Below, one piece after another: positions 7,665 through 61,806 of a stretch of DNA of 64,000 nt (positions are counted from its first letter, which is position 1; the number at the start of each line of letters is the position of its first letter). Origin of the DNA: Parachryseolinea silvisoli. GTDB taxonomy: Bacteria > Bacteroidota > Bacteroidia > Cytophagales > Cyclobacteriaceae. The translations under genes and the position numbers were made by a program. The DNA lies in NCBI RefSeq assembly GCF_021190955.1, contig NZ_JAIOAO010000003.1, positions 1,178,001-1,242,000 on the forward strand. Direction: 5' to 3'. Under the pieces are notes generated by a model. The model was given only the letters and a program-made list of their open reading frames with translations. It made no database searches and was not told where the DNA came from.

Positions 7665-8693
7665 ATGACCTCAGGAGAAGACGAGGAATCAACAAACCCG
7701 GGATGTGGCCTTTTTATTTTTACATTGTTTTTAGCGGGCGGCGCTATATCGCACTACAACAAGGCCTATATAAACAAGTATGAAGATTATTCAGAATTTG
7801 CCGTAGTCTTACGGGCCTCACCGATATATGATCGATCGGGCGGAGAAGCACCCAAAAATTTCATTGATTTTAAACTGACAAACGACAAGACCTTCTCGAT
7901 CATGGGCTGCGAATGTGAGGCCACCAGGAAGTCCGTTCCAACACGCCTTACGCCGGGTGACACAATTGTCATACGGGCGAAAGAATGGCTCAATGGCGAG
8001 AAGTATGACGTATATTCTGTTCGTTCTCCTCGCTATGGCACGATCCTCGATCCGGGTGACATAAGATCGTGCTCCAGCTCTCAGGCGAGGTGGTTTTTGG
8101 GAGCGACCATTGTCTGCGCCATCGGGGCTATCATCGCGTTTTTCTATGCGCTGCGAAAGGAAAATAAACTGGTAAAAATGGACAATCCAACATGGAACGA
8201 ATTCGTGCGTCGATATCAGCAAGTATTGGCGGGCACGATCAGTATACCTCAATTTGCCAAGGGCGCACGTGAGTTACTCCTCGGTGAAAATGGGAATCAC
8301 CACCTCAATGTTTTGTTAGGGCGGGAATATGACAATAGAAACTATGACGGCGTCCAGGTTTTAGTAATAGCAGCCTTACAAGCTCCCAGCAAAAAGTATA
8401 CAACTACTTTGTGTCTGATACTAGATGCCCGGTTAGCCTCAGTCAACAACGATGACATAGTCGATCTCCTGTGCGATATTGGAGATCCTGCAGCCGTGCC
8501 GTCGTTGATACGAGCTGCAAAGACCGAATGGCCCCTGGATGAGCACATGCATATCAATAAAAAATGCATTTGGACACTCCGGAAGATTTGTACAGACGAG
8601 GCTATACGCGGATTACAGGAATTAACACAACATACGTCCGTTGTAATAAACCACGAAGCCCAAAAAGAACTTGAAAGAATAAACAATGCATGA
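7665..8693 (+). CDS. Membrane protein with a HEAT-like C-terminal domain, unknown function
   Basis: A 342-residue protein if started at ATG 7665; the frame is open back to an ATG at 7593 (366 residues). There is a membrane segment near the N-terminus (GLFIFTLFLAGGAI) and a second in the middle (FLGATIVCAIGAIIAFFYAL). Between them is a domain of about 120 residues with a CECEATRK stretch. The C-terminal part is helical, with HEAT-like features (GDPAAVPSLIRAAK, then WTLRKICTDEAIRGLQELTQ). The layout of an extracytoplasmic loop between two segments followed by a cytosolic repeat domain is inferred from hydrophobicity only. Codon use is slightly AT-richer than in ligD. I do not recognise a named family. 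Confidence 0.68.
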   Translation: MTSGEDEESTNPGCGLFIFTLFLAGGAISHYNKAYINKYEDYSEFAVVLRASPIYDRSGGEAPKNFIDFKLTNDKTFSIMGCECEATRKSVPTRLTPGDTIVIRAKEWLNGEKYDVYSVRSPRYGTILDPGDIRSCSSSQARWFLGATIVCAIGAIIAFFYALRKENKLVKMDNPTWNEFVRRYQQVLAGTISIPQFAKGARELLLGENGNHHLNVLLGREYDNRNYDGVQVLVIAALQAPSKKYTTTLCLILDARLASVNNDDIVDLLCDIGDPAAVPSLIRAAKTEWPLDEHMHINKKCIWTLRKICTDEAIRGLQELTQHTSVVINHEAQKELERINNA

Positions 8694-56833: not shown

Positions 56834-57307
56834 CTAGACGCCCGTCAGGGGCGAATCTCTACTGCCGCCCACGAGCATTTCCAGGGTGGCAGAGCGCATG
56901 CGCTCGCAGCGCAGGAGCTCTTCGTAGAGCCGTTTGTTTTCATGGACCATAGCCATGCAGTGATCTAAGAAGGAGCGCAGCGAGGCGTTTGTTACGGTAT
57001 CGCCGGGGACGGAGGCCGGCGCGACGGACGGTCCTTCGGGCCGTTGCTCAAACGACTGAAGGACACACTCGCGCGCAACCCGCTCGCTAAACAGCCGGAT
57101 GATCTCGGGAGAAACTTTTAACTTGTCTGACACCTCGCGCAGGGTGGGATCGTCAATGAGCTCTTTCCCTTCTAACAACGATATTCTTTTCTGAGACCAA
57201 CCCGGCCCAAGCTGCTCGGCCAGGGATTCTTGTTTGACTCCTACCATCTCGCGAAAGCGCTTTAAATTTCTGCCGTGGTGAATGGGTTCTTCTTTTTCAG
57301 ACGCCAT
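56834..57307 (-). CDS. XRE-family helix-turn-helix regulator
   Basis: A 157-residue protein. The DNA-binding domain (about 10-72) reads NLKRFREMVGVKQESLAEQL and WSQKRISLLEGKE, then LREVSDKLKVSPEIIRLF. The C-terminal half is helical (SLRSFLDHCMAMVHENKRLY) and probably dimerises or senses. It is divergent from the HsdS/HsdM-like genes across a 184-bp, palindrome-rich gap, like control proteins of restriction-modification loci. Confidence 0.88.
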   Translation of the reverse strand: MASEKEEPIHHGRNLKRFREMVGVKQESLAEQLGPGWSQKRISLLEGKELIDDPTLREVSDKLKVSPEIIRLFSERVARECVLQSFEQRPEGPSVAPASVPGDTVTNASLRSFLDHCMAMVHENKRLYEELLRCERMRSATLEMLVGGSRDSPLTGV

Positions 57308-57436: not shown

Positions 57437-57480
57437 ACTTGCATCGTAGCAATTATGCAAGTACTTTGGTTAACCGTTAA
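57437..57480. promoter_or_regulatory. Palindrome cluster between XRE and hsdS-like genes
   Basis: ACTTGCAT (57437-57444) and ATGCAAGT (57455-57462) form a perfect 8-bp inverted repeat with a 10-nt spacer. GGTTAACC (57468-57475) and TTAAC-C-GTTAA (57470-57480) follow. They lie just before ATG 57492 and are likely operators, most simply for the XRE protein. Confidence 0.5.
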
Positions 57481-57491
57481 TCGCCATTGGT

Positions 57492-58097
57492 ATGATTCCC
57501 GTAGAAAAACTTCCCGCTGTTTTATCCGGTATATGGGCCGGCTATTCCTTCCGTAACAAGCTTTCACAAACGCCCGGCGGCAATCTGCACGTGCTGCAAA
57601 TGAAAGACCTGGAAGAACACTATACCGCCATCGGCTCGTCGCTCACCTGTATCAGCTTTGATACTATGCCGAAGAAATTCCTGCTGCAGGCCGGGGATGT
57701 ACTGTTCCTGGCGAAGGGTGCTAACAACTATGCGACGGCGTATACCCCGGTTTTGCCCCGCGTGGTACCGGCCTCGGCGTTTTTTATTCTCCGCCCCAAT
57801 GTACAAAAGATCGATCCCGGCTACCTGGCCTGGTATATCAACCAGCCGCCCGTACAACACTACCTGAAAACGCACGCTTCGGGAAAGCGTACACCGAATA
57901 TCAACAAAGATGTCATCGAACGGATCACGCTGCCGGTGCCACCCCTGGCACGGCAACAAGCTATCGCCACCATCGACCGGCTGCGCCGGGAGGAAATGCG
58001 TTTGCTGCGTACAATCCAGGAGCGACGCACCGAGCTTATCGCCCGGCAATTATTAACCGTTGTGTCAACCCCCGCCCTGTATGACCCTTGCGCATGA
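57492..58097 (+). CDS. Half-size type I specificity (HsdS-like) protein
   Basis: A 201-residue protein with a single target-recognition domain (about 1-150). VLQMKDL, KKFLLQAGDVLFLAKGANNY, GYLAWYINQPPVQHYLKTHA and RTPNINKDVIERITLPVPPL are all standard HsdS features. A coiled-coil helix (RQQAIATIDRLRREEMRLL) follows. Typical HsdS has two such domains and about 400 residues, so this one would need to dimerise to recognise a bipartite or palindromic site. It overlaps the HsdM-like gene by 17 bp. Confidence 0.85.
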   Translation: MIPVEKLPAVLSGIWAGYSFRNKLSQTPGGNLHVLQMKDLEEHYTAIGSSLTCISFDTMPKKFLLQAGDVLFLAKGANNYATAYTPVLPRVVPASAFFILRPNVQKIDPGYLAWYINQPPVQHYLKTHASGKRTPNINKDVIERITLPVPPLARQQAIATIDRLRREEMRLLRTIQERRTELIARQLLTVVSTPALYDPCA

Positions 58098-59937
58098 GCT
58101 TACGCCCGATACTGTGACGCGCCACCAGCTACTCTGGCGCGTGTATAAAATGATGGCGCGAACCTACACCTTCGCAGACAGCCTGCAATATACAGCAGGG
58201 CTCTTGCTGCTGCGTACGATCAGCACCGGCTGGCGTACACAACGAGCGATCTATGAGAAGCGGTACGGTGCCGGAAACCCCCAGGTGGCACGCATGATGA
58301 TGTTCTACCGTTTTCAGCTGCCTGAGAAATCTTCGTTTGAATACCTGTTGCTGCACCGCGAAAGAGACGACATCCCTGCGCGGGTAATCCAGGCATTGCA
58401 ACAACTGGATGCGTGTAACCCCGATACGTTGCAGGGTATATTTCGAGACGTTGATTTTAACAATTGTAAACCTGGTGCGACGGGCGGCGCGTCCGAGACG
58501 ATCCGGCAGTCGTTGAAATACCTGTCGCGTGCGGCGTTCGACACCGCGGCCGGTGAGGCATTTCACTATCTGTTGGAGAAGCTGGCGCACGCACGTGAGA
58601 ACCACTATAAGGCATTGTTCGTGCCATCGGCAGTCAGCCATCTGGTAGCGTTGTTGGCCGCGCCGCGGGCCGGAGAACGCATCGGCGACCCCGTATGCGG
58701 CTGTGGCTCACTGCTGGTTCCTACCATTCAGCATACCCGCGCCCGGAATGCACGTCTATCGCCCGACTTCTCGGCGTTTGGCCAGGAGCATCACGACGGC
58801 GGCTTTCGGCTGGCACGTATACACACGCATCTCTACGGGCTGGCGGGCGTTCGGCTGGAAGGCGCCAGCAGTATTTCCGATCCGCGCTTTCTGGAAGAAG
58901 ACGGCACGCTGATGAAGTTTGACGTGGTCGTGGCCAACCTGATGATATCCCTGAAACATTGGGGCTATCCCGAAGCACGGGCAGATCAACACCAACGGTT
59001 CCGGCACGGGCTTCCACCCCGGGGCAAAGGTGACTACGCCTATGTACAGCATATACTGGCCACGCTGGCGCCCGGCGGCCGGGCCGTGATCCTGATAACA
59101 CTAAACGCGCTGTCGCGGCAGGGCGCTGAGGCGAAAATTCGGCGGGCACTGATAGACGCCAACGTGATCGATGCGGTGATTGCCTTGCCGGTCAATCTTT
59201 TCTCTGACACGGCGGCCTCGACAGCAGTCCTGATCCTTCGGCCATCACGAACACGTAACGAGGTACTTTTTATCGACGCCCGGCAACATTATCAAGCGGG
59301 ACGAAAGCAACATGTGTTACGTCCGCAAGATATCACACGCATTACCGCTGCCTATGCCCGCTACGAAAACCAGGAGGAACTGGCGGTTTGTGTTCCCCGG
59401 GAAGAGATTGCCCGGAACACCTTCAGCCTCTCCGTCGTGCCTTATATTCACCGCGTCACGCCGACGGGGCATGCTGACGTGTCATCGTTACGACAAGAAA
59501 TCGACCAGTTGGATCACACCTTGCACCAAACACGTGTCACCCTGGATACGCTTCTGCAGGCGCTACAGGATGTTAACAACGAAACCGATATACGAACATT
59601 GCCCTACACATACCCACCCACGACTGACGTCTTTGAAGACGCTCTTGCCGCATATGATGCAACGCTGGAACATTCCTTTATTGTGGCAGTACATCACGCA
59701 ATACCACATATTTCAGACGTCTTTGCCGCGGCTGCCGGAGCGGGGATCCAGGCCGTATACCGGCGTCGCATCATCCGGGATTGGAAAACAAATACCGACT
59801 GGCAACGCGAAACGGACCGCGATGTAGAGGATTTACTATACAGGTTAACCTCGGATAAAAGTTTGCCTGTAACCGAGGCCATGCGCGACGCTATCCGGTT
59901 CACCTGCCGGGAAGCAGCGACGCGAATATTTCAGTAG
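58081..59937 (+). CDS. HsdM-like N6-adenine methyltransferase homologue with altered catalytic motifs
   Basis: A 618-residue protein from ATG 58081. The HsdM N-terminal helical domain (about 1-150) is followed by the Rossmann domain. AdoMet motif I reads DPVCGCGSLL (from D203) instead of the family DPxCGSGG. Motif IV, normally NPPF/Y, reads VVVANLMISLKHW, so N286 is followed by Leu-Met-Ile (AAC CTG ATG ATA in the DNA). The stacking residue and both prolines are lost, which should abolish or strongly reduce methylation. Motifs around KGDYAYVQHILATLAPGGRA and the C-terminal coiled coil are kept. An extra C-terminal region beyond about residue 470 is longer than in typical HsdM. It is clearly intact as a reading frame, so it was probably repurposed, for example for DNA binding with HsdS. 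Confidence 0.85.
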   Translation: MTLAHELTPDTVTRHQLLWRVYKMMARTYTFADSLQYTAGLLLLRTISTGWRTQRAIYEKRYGAGNPQVARMMMFYRFQLPEKSSFEYLLLHRERDDIPARVIQALQQLDACNPDTLQGIFRDVDFNNCKPGATGGASETIRQSLKYLSRAAFDTAAGEAFHYLLEKLAHARENHYKALFVPSAVSHLVALLAAPRAGERIGDPVCGCGSLLVPTIQHTRARNARLSPDFSAFGQEHHDGGFRLARIHTHLYGLAGVRLEGASSISDPRFLEEDGTLMKFDVVVANLMISLKHWGYPEARADQHQRFRHGLPPRGKGDYAYVQHILATLAPGGRAVILITLNALSRQGAEAKIRRALIDANVIDAVIALPVNLFSDTAASTAVLILRPSRTRNEVLFIDARQHYQAGRKQHVLRPQDITRITAAYARYENQEELAVCVPREEIARNTFSLSVVPYIHRVTPTGHADVSSLRQEIDQLDHTLHQTRVTLDTLLQALQDVNNETDIRTLPYTYPPTTDVFEDALAAYDATLEHSFIVAVHHAIPHISDVFAAAAGAGIQAVYRRRIIRDWKTNTDWQRETDRDVEDLLYRLTSDKSLPVTEAMRDAIRFTCREAATRIFQ

Positions 59938-59989: not shown

Positions 59990-60865
59990 ATGAAAATACT
60001 TTTTGTAATCAATCCTGCCTCCGGAAACAAAAATATTGACAAGGCCATCTTGCGCATCCATGCGCTGGCCGTGGAAACGGGGTTCGACTTTAAATTTATG
60101 TATACCACCGGTGTGGACGACGACAATGCTATTCAGGAGCAACTCCACACGTATAAACCTGACCGGATCATAGCGGGCGGCGGTGACGGCACCTTGCAGA
60201 TGGTCGCGCGCAACATACTCAACCGGAAGATTCCGTTTGGGGTACTTCCGTTTGGATCGGCTAACGGTTTCGCCACGGCGATCGGCATTCCGGCGAACCC
60301 CGTCGAGGCAGTCGAGGCGGTCGTTCGCGCCGAGCGCACACATCCCCTGGACTTGTTGAAGTTCAACGACAAACACCTGTGTATACATTTAGGTGATATC
60401 GGCATCAATGCGCTGATGGTAAAAGAATACTCCGAGGATGAATCGCGTGGCATGTTGGGATATGCCAAACATTTGATCGCCTCTACGCAGGCCACACCGC
60501 TGCTGCACTATACCATTAAAACACCCGAGCAGGAATACAAGAAGGAGGGATATATGTTGGCCTTTGCCAACGCACACAAATATGGTACAGGTATTCACAT
60601 CTCCGAAGGATCGGTATCAGACGGTAAGTTTGAGATCTGCAATGTAGAACATATCGCACTGGACTCCGCGATCAAAGCCGGGCTCACAGCCCTGAACGTC
60701 TTTATCGATAAGAATATGTTTGCCGATGTCATCTGTTGCCGCGAGGCCGAGATACACATTAGTGAAAAGGTTCATTTTCAGATCGATGGCGAGTATATGG
60801 GCATGACGGATCATTTGACCGTCCGGATACTTGCCGCCGCTATTCCCCTGCTGATTCCATCATGA
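59990..60865 (+). CDS. Diacylglycerol kinase-like lipid kinase
   Basis: A 291-residue protein. FVINPASGNK is at the N-terminus, GGGDGT at 63-68 and LPFGSANGFATAIGIP near 90, the nucleotide-binding and catalytic pattern of the DAGK family. The C-terminal beta-domain has FQIDGEYMGM. It should phosphorylate a lipid such as diacylglycerol to phosphatidate. The stop overlaps the start of an App1-type phosphatase gene (ATGA, 60862-60865), whose reaction would be the reverse. Confidence 0.9.
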   Translation: MKILFVINPASGNKNIDKAILRIHALAVETGFDFKFMYTTGVDDDNAIQEQLHTYKPDRIIAGGGDGTLQMVARNILNRKIPFGVLPFGSANGFATAIGIPANPVEAVEAVVRAERTHPLDLLKFNDKHLCIHLGDIGINALMVKEYSEDESRGMLGYAKHLIASTQATPLLHYTIKTPEQEYKKEGYMLAFANAHKYGTGIHISEGSVSDGKFEICNVEHIALDSAIKAGLTALNVFIDKNMFADVICCREAEIHISEKVHFQIDGEYMGMTDHLTVRILAAAIPLLIPS

Positions 60866-61806
60866 GTATTAAAAAGATACCTGTACTGCTAAGCTTTTAT
60901 GCGCTCTCCAATGGAAAGGAAGCACTGATGTTTGGTCAAATCGCCACAACACGGTTAAACGACCTGAGCTTTACGGCGTACAGCCCACGACGCACATTCC
61001 GCACATTGTTTGCCTTATACCGCACGCGCCCGGTAGCGCATACTTCTGTCACGTTACACTTCGGCCCGGTCTCGATGTCGGCAAAAACCGATGCTACGGG
61101 CGCATTTTTCTTCAAACATCCTGTCGAACAAATATCAAGCGCGTTGCAACGCGTTACACTGAACGCAGGGGGAGAAGTGACACTGTTAGAAGGCTTATAC
61201 CTGCTCACCGTACATCATGTCGTCAGTCCCATGGTGATGGTGTCCGACATTGATGATACGCTGCTACACTCGTTCATTCGCAACAAGTTCCGAAAGCTTC
61301 GGACATTGCTCTTTACGCCAGTTGAAAAACGTGGGGCGGTTAAAAACATGCGTGAGCTGATGTCAGATGCGGCGCAACAAGGAGGAACGGTTTTATACCT
61401 CTCTAACAGCGAACAAAATTTATATCCGTTGATATACAGGTTCCTGCTACACAACAAATTCCCGACGGGGCCACTATTCCTAAAACAGTTACGCAAGCTC
61501 CGGGATGTGTTTTTGTACCGGAAGGTAGGTGTGCCCGGCATTCACAAGTTAAAGATGCTGGATCAAATCCTGGCATTGTTTCCCGATAAACGATTTGCAT
61601 TAGTCGGTGACAACACGCAACAGGATCTCCCGATCTATCTGACTGCTTCGGAGAAATACCCGGATAACATCCGGTATATATTAATTCGGAAGGCGCGGCG
61701 ATCCTCCTCAGCGCAAGCCTTGATTAAAAAGACAGAAGCCCGGCTACGGGAACAAAATATCACCCTATACTATGAAGAAAATTTACCGACGTCGTTGAAC
61801 TGGTGA
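60862..61806 (+). CDS. App1-type phosphatidate phosphatase (DUF2183)
   Basis: A 314-residue protein. A beta-rich N-terminal half (about 1-120) precedes the catalytic domain, whose motif is SDIDDTLLHS (D129, D131, T133), the DxDxT of HAD-type phosphatases. YLSNSEQNLYPLIYRFLLHN and FALVGDNTQQDLPIYL are typical of App1/DUF2183 proteins. Yeast App1 dephosphorylates phosphatidate to diacylglycerol. The 4-bp overlap with the lipid kinase suggests joint control of one lipid pool. Confidence 0.9.
   Translation: MSIKKIPVLLSFYALSNGKEALMFGQIATTRLNDLSFTAYSPRRTFRTLFALYRTRPVAHTSVTLHFGPVSMSAKTDATGAFFFKHPVEQISSALQRVTLNAGGEVTLLEGLYLLTVHHVVSPMVMVSDIDDTLLHSFIRNKFRKLRTLLFTPVEKRGAVKNMRELMSDAAQQGGTVLYLSNSEQNLYPLIYRFLLHNKFPTGPLFLKQLRKLRDVFLYRKVGVPGIHKLKMLDQILALFPDKRFALVGDNTQQDLPIYLTASEKYPDNIRYILIRKARRSSSAQALIKKTEARLREQNITLYYEENLPTSLNW

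Follow-up and report, generated by a model that had tools for sequence, protein, structure and literature searches.

Type I restriction-modification (R-M) systems are built from parts that are known for fast change and loss. In the gamma-class methylases, motif X serves the methionine part of AdoMet, motif III its adenine and motif IV the target base. Half-size specificity subunits (half-S) can work as dimers, as reported for engineered EcoR124I with the symmetric site GAAN7TTC (PMC3320862, PMC2877798) and also for an engineered S. aureus system (PMC6158711). For PacII, F171 and F279 of M1 are named as residues of the base pocket, the mutants F171A and N276A/F279A are reported to affect methylation, and the C-terminal tail of HsdM is reported to be required to hold S (PMC9613975). 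Two EcoR124I papers implicate the C-terminal region of HsdR in its attachment to the methylase (PMC2878639, PMC5248579).

The locus described here lies in a window of 64,000 nucleotides, the whole stretch of DNA that was analyzed, from Parachryseolinea silvisoli. It consists of a gene for a half-size HsdS-like protein (57492..58097, + strand; Pfam Methylase_S, E 2e-7) and a gene for an HsdM-like protein without catalytic motifs, fused to a tail from the C-terminus of HsdR (58081..59937, + strand; 618 aa). The half-S has 201 aa and a single TRD instead of the two of a type I HsdS. As the sequence-only reading had claimed, the HsdM-like frame is intact from its ATG start over 618 codons and overlaps the HsdS-like gene by 17 bp; the same 17-bp overlap is present in Dawidia soli (S ends at L039:8017, M starts at 8001). 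The HsdM portion (58126..59565, + strand; about residues 16-495) comprises HsdM_N, a methylase-like fold and a C-terminal helix, and stops at the point where sister HsdMs stop. Pfam assigned residues 16-129 to HsdM_N (PF12161) and residues 157-457 to N6_Mtase (PF02384, E 6e-63). The predicted model of the whole protein shows a confident HsdM fold, mostly with pLDDT >80, and the nearest solved structures by sequence are HsdM subunits (PacII M1 and M2, EcoR124I M and others). PADLOC placed both proteins, half-S and M, among type I subunits. Against the NCBIfam model TIGR00497 (hsdM) the protein reached 146 bits, below the curated cut-off of 242.75, and with 36 and 19.6 bits it fell far short of the curated cut-offs for MAD2 and MAD5 of the MADS defence system (720 and 400).

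To define the extent of motif loss, the proteins of the window and of D. soli were aligned with 26 related motif-intact HsdMs, and a column was taken as near-invariant if it was conserved in 24 or more of these relatives, which gave 233 columns. The window protein retains 103 of these positions and the D. soli protein 100. Motif IV (58936..58947, + strand) reads NLMI (N286-L-M-I289) in the window protein and NLML in D. soli. In 26/26 relatives it is NPPF, with P, P and F at the positions of L287, M288 and I289; with N286, one of four near-invariant positions is left in either species. The destroyed motif IV of the sequence-only reading, and with it the lack of the NPP(F/Y/W) of a type I methylase, is therefore borne out. 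At the motif X site (58609..58626, + strand), KALFVP has replaced GEF(F/Y)TP with 1/5 positions retained in both proteins, and motif III, where GDT has become ASS in the window protein, retains 0/3 in both. Region 340-347 retains 2/7 in each. Motif II is complete in both (3/3), including its GQE, and motif I (58687..58716, + strand) is largely retained as DPVCGCGSLL in the window protein (8/9) and DPVCGYGALL in D. soli (7/9). The change of CGSGG to CGCGS that had been claimed for motif I is thus present but slight. Outside the motifs, 88/202 near-invariant positions are kept in the window protein and 86/202 in D. soli, so that the loss is spread across the protein and heaviest at motifs X, III and IV. 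In the alignment, the pocket residues F171 and F279 of PacII M1 correspond to L179 and I289 (L in D. soli at the latter). With motif I and the motif II GQE still present, binding of the methyl donor AdoMet, or even weak activity, is possible. Among 21 viral-contig loci, an HsdM frame was present in 20, and all 20 frames contained NPP. The losses of motifs X and III and a C-terminal tail foreign to HsdM were absent from the earlier reading.

The HsdMs of the relatives end at about residue 495, and what lies beyond in the window protein has no equivalent in them. A linker follows (59563..59664, + strand; about residues 495-528, 494-527 in the model), which is predicted to be disordered (pLDDT mostly <50) and is the fastest-evolving part of the protein, with 34% identity to D. 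soli at 501-535. The remainder (59638..59934, + strand; about residues 520-618) forms four predicted helices, which were of low confidence in the whole-protein model and appeared again as four when the tail was modelled alone. The whole protein matched the end of the HsdR of an order-level relative, G052 (E 7e-8), as did the tail alone (E 3.6e-9); this was the only clear tail match among 30 HsdRs of relatives. Four further HsdRs from the closest sister systems (L121, L122, L123, L125) match the window tail as well (blastp, E 2e-8 to 3e-4). Local alignments of the two fusion tails with the five sister HsdRs exceeded the best of 300 shuffles in 10/10 cases (z 6.6-19.9). A profile built from the ends of these five HsdRs matched both fusions (8e-9 and 3e-7), the best other window ORF reaching E 0.26. 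The core common to tails and HsdR ends is IRDW-N-D. The tail is recognisable only in the HsdRs of one sister group. A Pfam search of the tail alone gave no match, EcoR124I HsdR was not matched in a profile search with the ends of the sister HsdRs, and a fold search with the predicted tail gave no informative match. At the level of sequence, residues ~520-618 qualify as homologous to the C-terminal end of HsdR, the T1RH-like_C region. A docking of the tail to HsdM is proposed from its position and by analogy to EcoR124I.

With a complete sister HsdR as query (E 0.001), the fusion tail was found in each of the two genomes (E about 6e-4), and the only other match was an HsdR of another subfamily in the window's genome (33%). 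No HsdR of the matching subfamily, with nuclease and translocase, was found in either genome apart from the fusion tail. The earlier claim that no HsdR is present is thus correct for the surroundings of the locus and for the matching subfamily, but a C-terminal remnant of HsdR is part of the same polypeptide.

The closest sister systems (L041, L121-L125) follow the order half-S - M - S - R with cargo genes in between. Their half-S and M are 31-46% and 32-35% identical to those of the window, respectively, and the C-terminal end of their HsdR is the relative of the fusion tail; they carry NPPF in M and a separate S, whereas the window locus contains only the half-S and the fusion of M and R tail. 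Five of the six encode a full HsdR of about 1040 aa, while L124 ends at the contig end before the tail region and has its S in two frames. In the operon of G052, half-S and M are followed by further genes and R; the identities of half-S, M and R were tested, and we take the whole to read half-S, M, RhuM-like, S, R, metalloprotease-like, with the labels RhuM-like, S and metalloprotease-like assumed. More generally, a half-size HsdS was located near HsdM in 25/26 motif-intact type I loci (exception: L010), at least 12 of the 26 also showed a full-size HsdS in the stretch examined, and in several, unrelated cargo genes separated M, S and R. A literature search on the role of the half-S in such systems gave nothing that names it. 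Because the tail is homologous to the sister HsdR ends, half-S, M and the end of HsdR appear to have been retained in ancestral order with the remainder gone. The locus is best read as a half-S - M - S - R system minus the full HsdS and nearly all of HsdR, and a deletion would be the simplest account of the fusion.

Both genomes hold other type I-like genes. In the window's genome, a cluster of another subfamily (L126:10829-18124; G000:C7:238829-246124) encodes M (807 aa), S (377 aa), R (1016 aa) and a metalloprotease-like protein, with a paralogue of the HTH gene of our locus (see below) about 4 kb upstream, and HSDR_N matched a frame of 164 aa at C5:279841. In a type I-like cluster of D. soli (L128:822-6975; G002:C58), M has 525 aa and S has 386 aa, and a frame of 1125 aa matches HSDR_N.

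The locus of D. soli PWU37 (L039; G002:C75) has the same order as that of the window: HTH, half-S, M, lipid kinase, phosphatidate phosphatase. M is about 65% identical between the two (66% over residues 1-616), S 81% and the HTH protein 62-66%. Among the neighbour proteins, which include the lipid kinase, the phosphatidate phosphatase, a universal stress protein and signalling proteins encoded in the same order in both species, seven are 89-96% and two others 81-84% identical. The M frames have 618 (window) and 622 codons (D. soli), with six gap columns across the gene. The genes for the YegS-like lipid kinase and the APP1-like phosphatidate phosphatase (59990-61806) overlap by 4 bp in the window and are adjacent in 7/7 genomes of the genus examined; in the five further genomes S-M is not beside this pair, and no full-length match to the window protein was obtained.

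Searches over wider samples returned the same two carriers. Among 59 relatives, full-length matches occurred only in the window's own genome and in D. soli (G002). In 390 family genomes (E 1e-60), 25 matched, full-length again in these two, and the other 23 matches ended by residue 504; in 395 phylum genomes (E 1e-80), three matched, and the two besides the own genome ended by residue 501. The tail alone, searched against 390 order genomes (E 0.001), hit only the own genome and the G052 HsdR. G002 evidently lies outside the samples of 395 phylum and 390 order genomes. A scan of genome contigs gave one locus, that of D. soli. Matching records numbered 3100 for plasmids and 79 for phages, and none of the 15 and eight matches listed, respectively, extended beyond residue 518 and residue 512. 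The fusion is thus known from two species of one genus. A sequencing error or recent decay is rejected, because loss of motif IV, frame and gene order are common to both species; the substitution is not unique to one sequence, which the sequence-only reading had named as a case against its own claim. The conservation of NLMI-type substitutions that it had proposed to check extends to these two species; no wide clade of such HsdMs was found in the family, order and phylum samples.

For estimating selection, substitution rates were compared between the window and D. soli (NG86, dN/dS). M gave 0.236/1.253 (about 0.19), S 0.118/0.666 (0.18), the HTH gene 0.251/1.149 and the lipid kinase 0.050/1.131, which shows that S and M are both constrained, less than the lipid kinase and the other compared neighbours. 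This estimate rests on one species pair, as the carriers are two species of one genus. Constraint within M is stronger in the methylase part: dN is 0.148 for residues 301-400, 0.582 for the linker and 0.326 for the tail. Out of 325 pairs of motif-intact HsdMs, the nine non-identical ones with pS up to 0.70 had a pN of 0.025-0.086; the pN of M in the pair of window and D. soli was 0.204 at a pS of 0.607. Judged by these rates, M of the two species is a released yet still constrained methylase. The ratio of pN between M and half-S is 1.87 in this pair and 0.49 in the median of 299 motif-intact non-identical pairs with both genes. The six sister systems are 76-90% identical in M and 32-58% in half-S; the respective values for window and D. 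soli are 65% and 81%. As a hallmark, this reversal of constraint is strong but not absolute, and a strict form was rejected: pN of M exceeded that of S in 4/299 motif-intact pairs as well, all four involving the identical L036/L037.

In the midpoint-rooted M tree, a very long stem of 7.99 changes per column, which is probably saturated, leads to the two HsdMs; the amino-acid composition of their rows is unusual, and L010 too is very long. In the half-S tree the two proteins fall together with the half-S proteins from the six sister systems (stem 0.93, support 99/99), but this tree carries a long-branch warning that names their group and serves only as support for the result of the HsdR tail. 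The methylase was freed early and retained afterwards. Since the motif loss is common to the orthologue, the frame intact and dN/dS well below 1, the locus is, on this evidence, no freshly decayed R-M gene. Thus, the earlier statement "not a decayed R-M system" stands as far as fresh decay is concerned; the locus nevertheless arose through extensive loss from a type I R-M system.

Upstream of the half-S gene, a divergent gene encodes a helix-turn-helix protein of 157 aa (56834..57307, - strand), a possible local regulator that adjoins S-M in both species. Its family has several copies per genome in the genus (up to 8 at E 0.001; 6/7 genomes). The intergenic region between the HTH and S genes contains a perfect inverted repeat of two 8-bp arms with a 10-bp gap (57437..57462), a candidate operator. 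In D. soli the arms are identical and the spacer is different, and the perfect form is a single copy in each genome. An equally good repeat was present in 8% of 2000 shuffles, which makes it weak evidence alone. The intergenic region is 86.3% identical between the species and unexceptional in this respect (two nearby regions: 87.0% and 90.6%). A regulon search allowing up to 3 mismatches found the repeat more rarely than its reversed-pattern control (19 vs 30 and 7 vs 20 per strand), so that no regulon is visible and the repeat is no recurrent motif of the genome. The divergent HTH neighbour together with the conserved repeat suggests local control. The third-position G+C of S and M (62-64%) is inside the range of the neighbours (47-66%), whereas their total G+C (55-57%) is higher than that of the neighbours (46-51%) except for the HTH gene (56.5%).

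Taken together, a type I system that was reduced to a sequence-specific DNA clamp, perhaps for gene control, is in our view a likely overall account. Its starting point would have been a complete half-S - M - S - R system with interspersed cargo genes. This system would have lost its cargo, the full HsdS and hsdR except for roughly the last 100 codons, which, as the anatomy of the fusion suggests, brought hsdM in frame with the hsdR tail. The methylase residues responsible for holding the methyl donor and the flipped adenine were lost, most simply once in the common ancestor, and by its dN/dS the pseudo-methylase was then maintained by purifying selection. Two half-S proteins may pair and bind a symmetric split DNA site, around which two pseudo-M proteins would close in the style of an M2S clamp. 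The R tail may pack on M or DNA and occupy the protein's own motor-docking surface, so that no motor would dock and neither cutting nor methylation would occur. Most likely the complex acts without methylation or nuclease as a putative sequence-specific DNA binder, for which a role in regulation, immunity or anti-restriction may be considered. Among its possible roles we consider the control of genes at one or a few sites the most likely, perhaps including its own divergent promoter and together with the HTH protein. Its specific form, a half-S dimer with two pseudo-HsdMs, each bearing its own HsdR docking tail, that clamps a split site like a transcription factor or chromatin protein, is put forward tentatively; no description of such a clamp in either function was found in the literature.

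The same parts could serve other ends. Tail, pseudo-M and half-S might mimic the parts of a methylase and either titrate the HsdR of type I systems, whether resident or incoming, or mask the sites of these systems, which we regard as unlikely. Such a decoy would exploit the HsdR region that is implicated in joining the methylase (PMC2878639, PMC5248579), and EcoR124I HsdR mutants that assemble without cutting are reported to lower restriction in trans (PMC5248579). However, the decoy has no obvious resident target, because an HsdR of the matching subfamily was found in neither genome; the type I-like clusters of another subfamily in both genomes (G000:C7 and D. soli L128) are in its favour, and the D. 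soli cluster slightly weakens this argument against it. A defence against phages or plasmids through methylation-free site binding, possibly with a partner effector, would agree with the ancestry in a defence system and with the PADLOC assignment of both proteins. It appears quite unlikely to us, since no effector gene lies beside the locus, where lipid kinase, phosphatidate phosphatase, universal stress protein and signalling genes are found instead, and the third-position G+C of S and M falls within the range of these neighbours, though total G+C is higher.

That the locus is a slowly decaying, functionless remnant, open in both species by chance, we hold to be improbable: the frames of 618 and 622 codons have stayed intact at a synonymous divergence of about 1.25 with a dN/dS of 0.19, the gene shows just six gap columns and the 17-bp overlap is conserved, even if constraint on the methylase is much weaker than in motif-intact systems and the distribution of the locus is narrow. 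It would be most surprising if the protein were still a methylase with an unusual pocket or for another base. The nearly intact motif I and GQE of motif II would fit such an enzyme, but L179 and I289 (L in D. soli) take the places of F171 and F279 in the pocket of PacII M1, where F171A and N276A/F279A affect methylation (PMC9613975), and motifs X and III are lost too.

If the reduction to a DNA clamp is true, a lost catalysis followed by conservation, with a motor tail on a dead methylase, would mean that DNA-recognition machines can be reused for another job. As a two-gene object, the locus is suited to asking whether clamps of the M2S type regulate without methylation.

Compared with known systems, the window protein resembles the type IIB RM fusions (BcgI, BsaXI) in combining R and M parts in one polypeptide. 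In type IIB fusions the nuclease stands in front of M. The window protein differs in that HsdM_N begins at residue 16, Pfam gives no nuclease domain, and the HsdR C-terminal tail follows M without nuclease or ATPase. METTL14 is a catalytically dead methyltransferase partner that has kept its fold, takes part in nucleic-acid binding and partners an active subunit; it belongs to another family, and no active HsdM is encoded beside the HsdM of the window. With EcoR124I and the engineered EcoR124INT, the locus has the HsdM fold and the half-S arrangement in common (PMC3320862, PMC2877798), but EcoR124INT methylates and, with HsdR, cuts, whereas the catalytic residues and the HsdR motor are missing here. 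PacII M1M2S (7vru, 7vs4) is the closest solved HsdM by sequence (E 4.9e-50) and fold, and the helix of the HsdM C-terminal tail is still predicted in the window protein; unlike the window locus, PacII retains the catalytic motif and the motif X pocket, and its S has two recognition domains (PMC9613975). Judged by titles and the starts of abstracts, with most subscription papers outside reach, neither an HsdM fused to an HsdR tail nor a conserved HsdM lacking motif IV was found described. The parts are of known kind; their combination, in which a pseudo-M with an HsdR tail is under selection together with a half-S, appears to be new.
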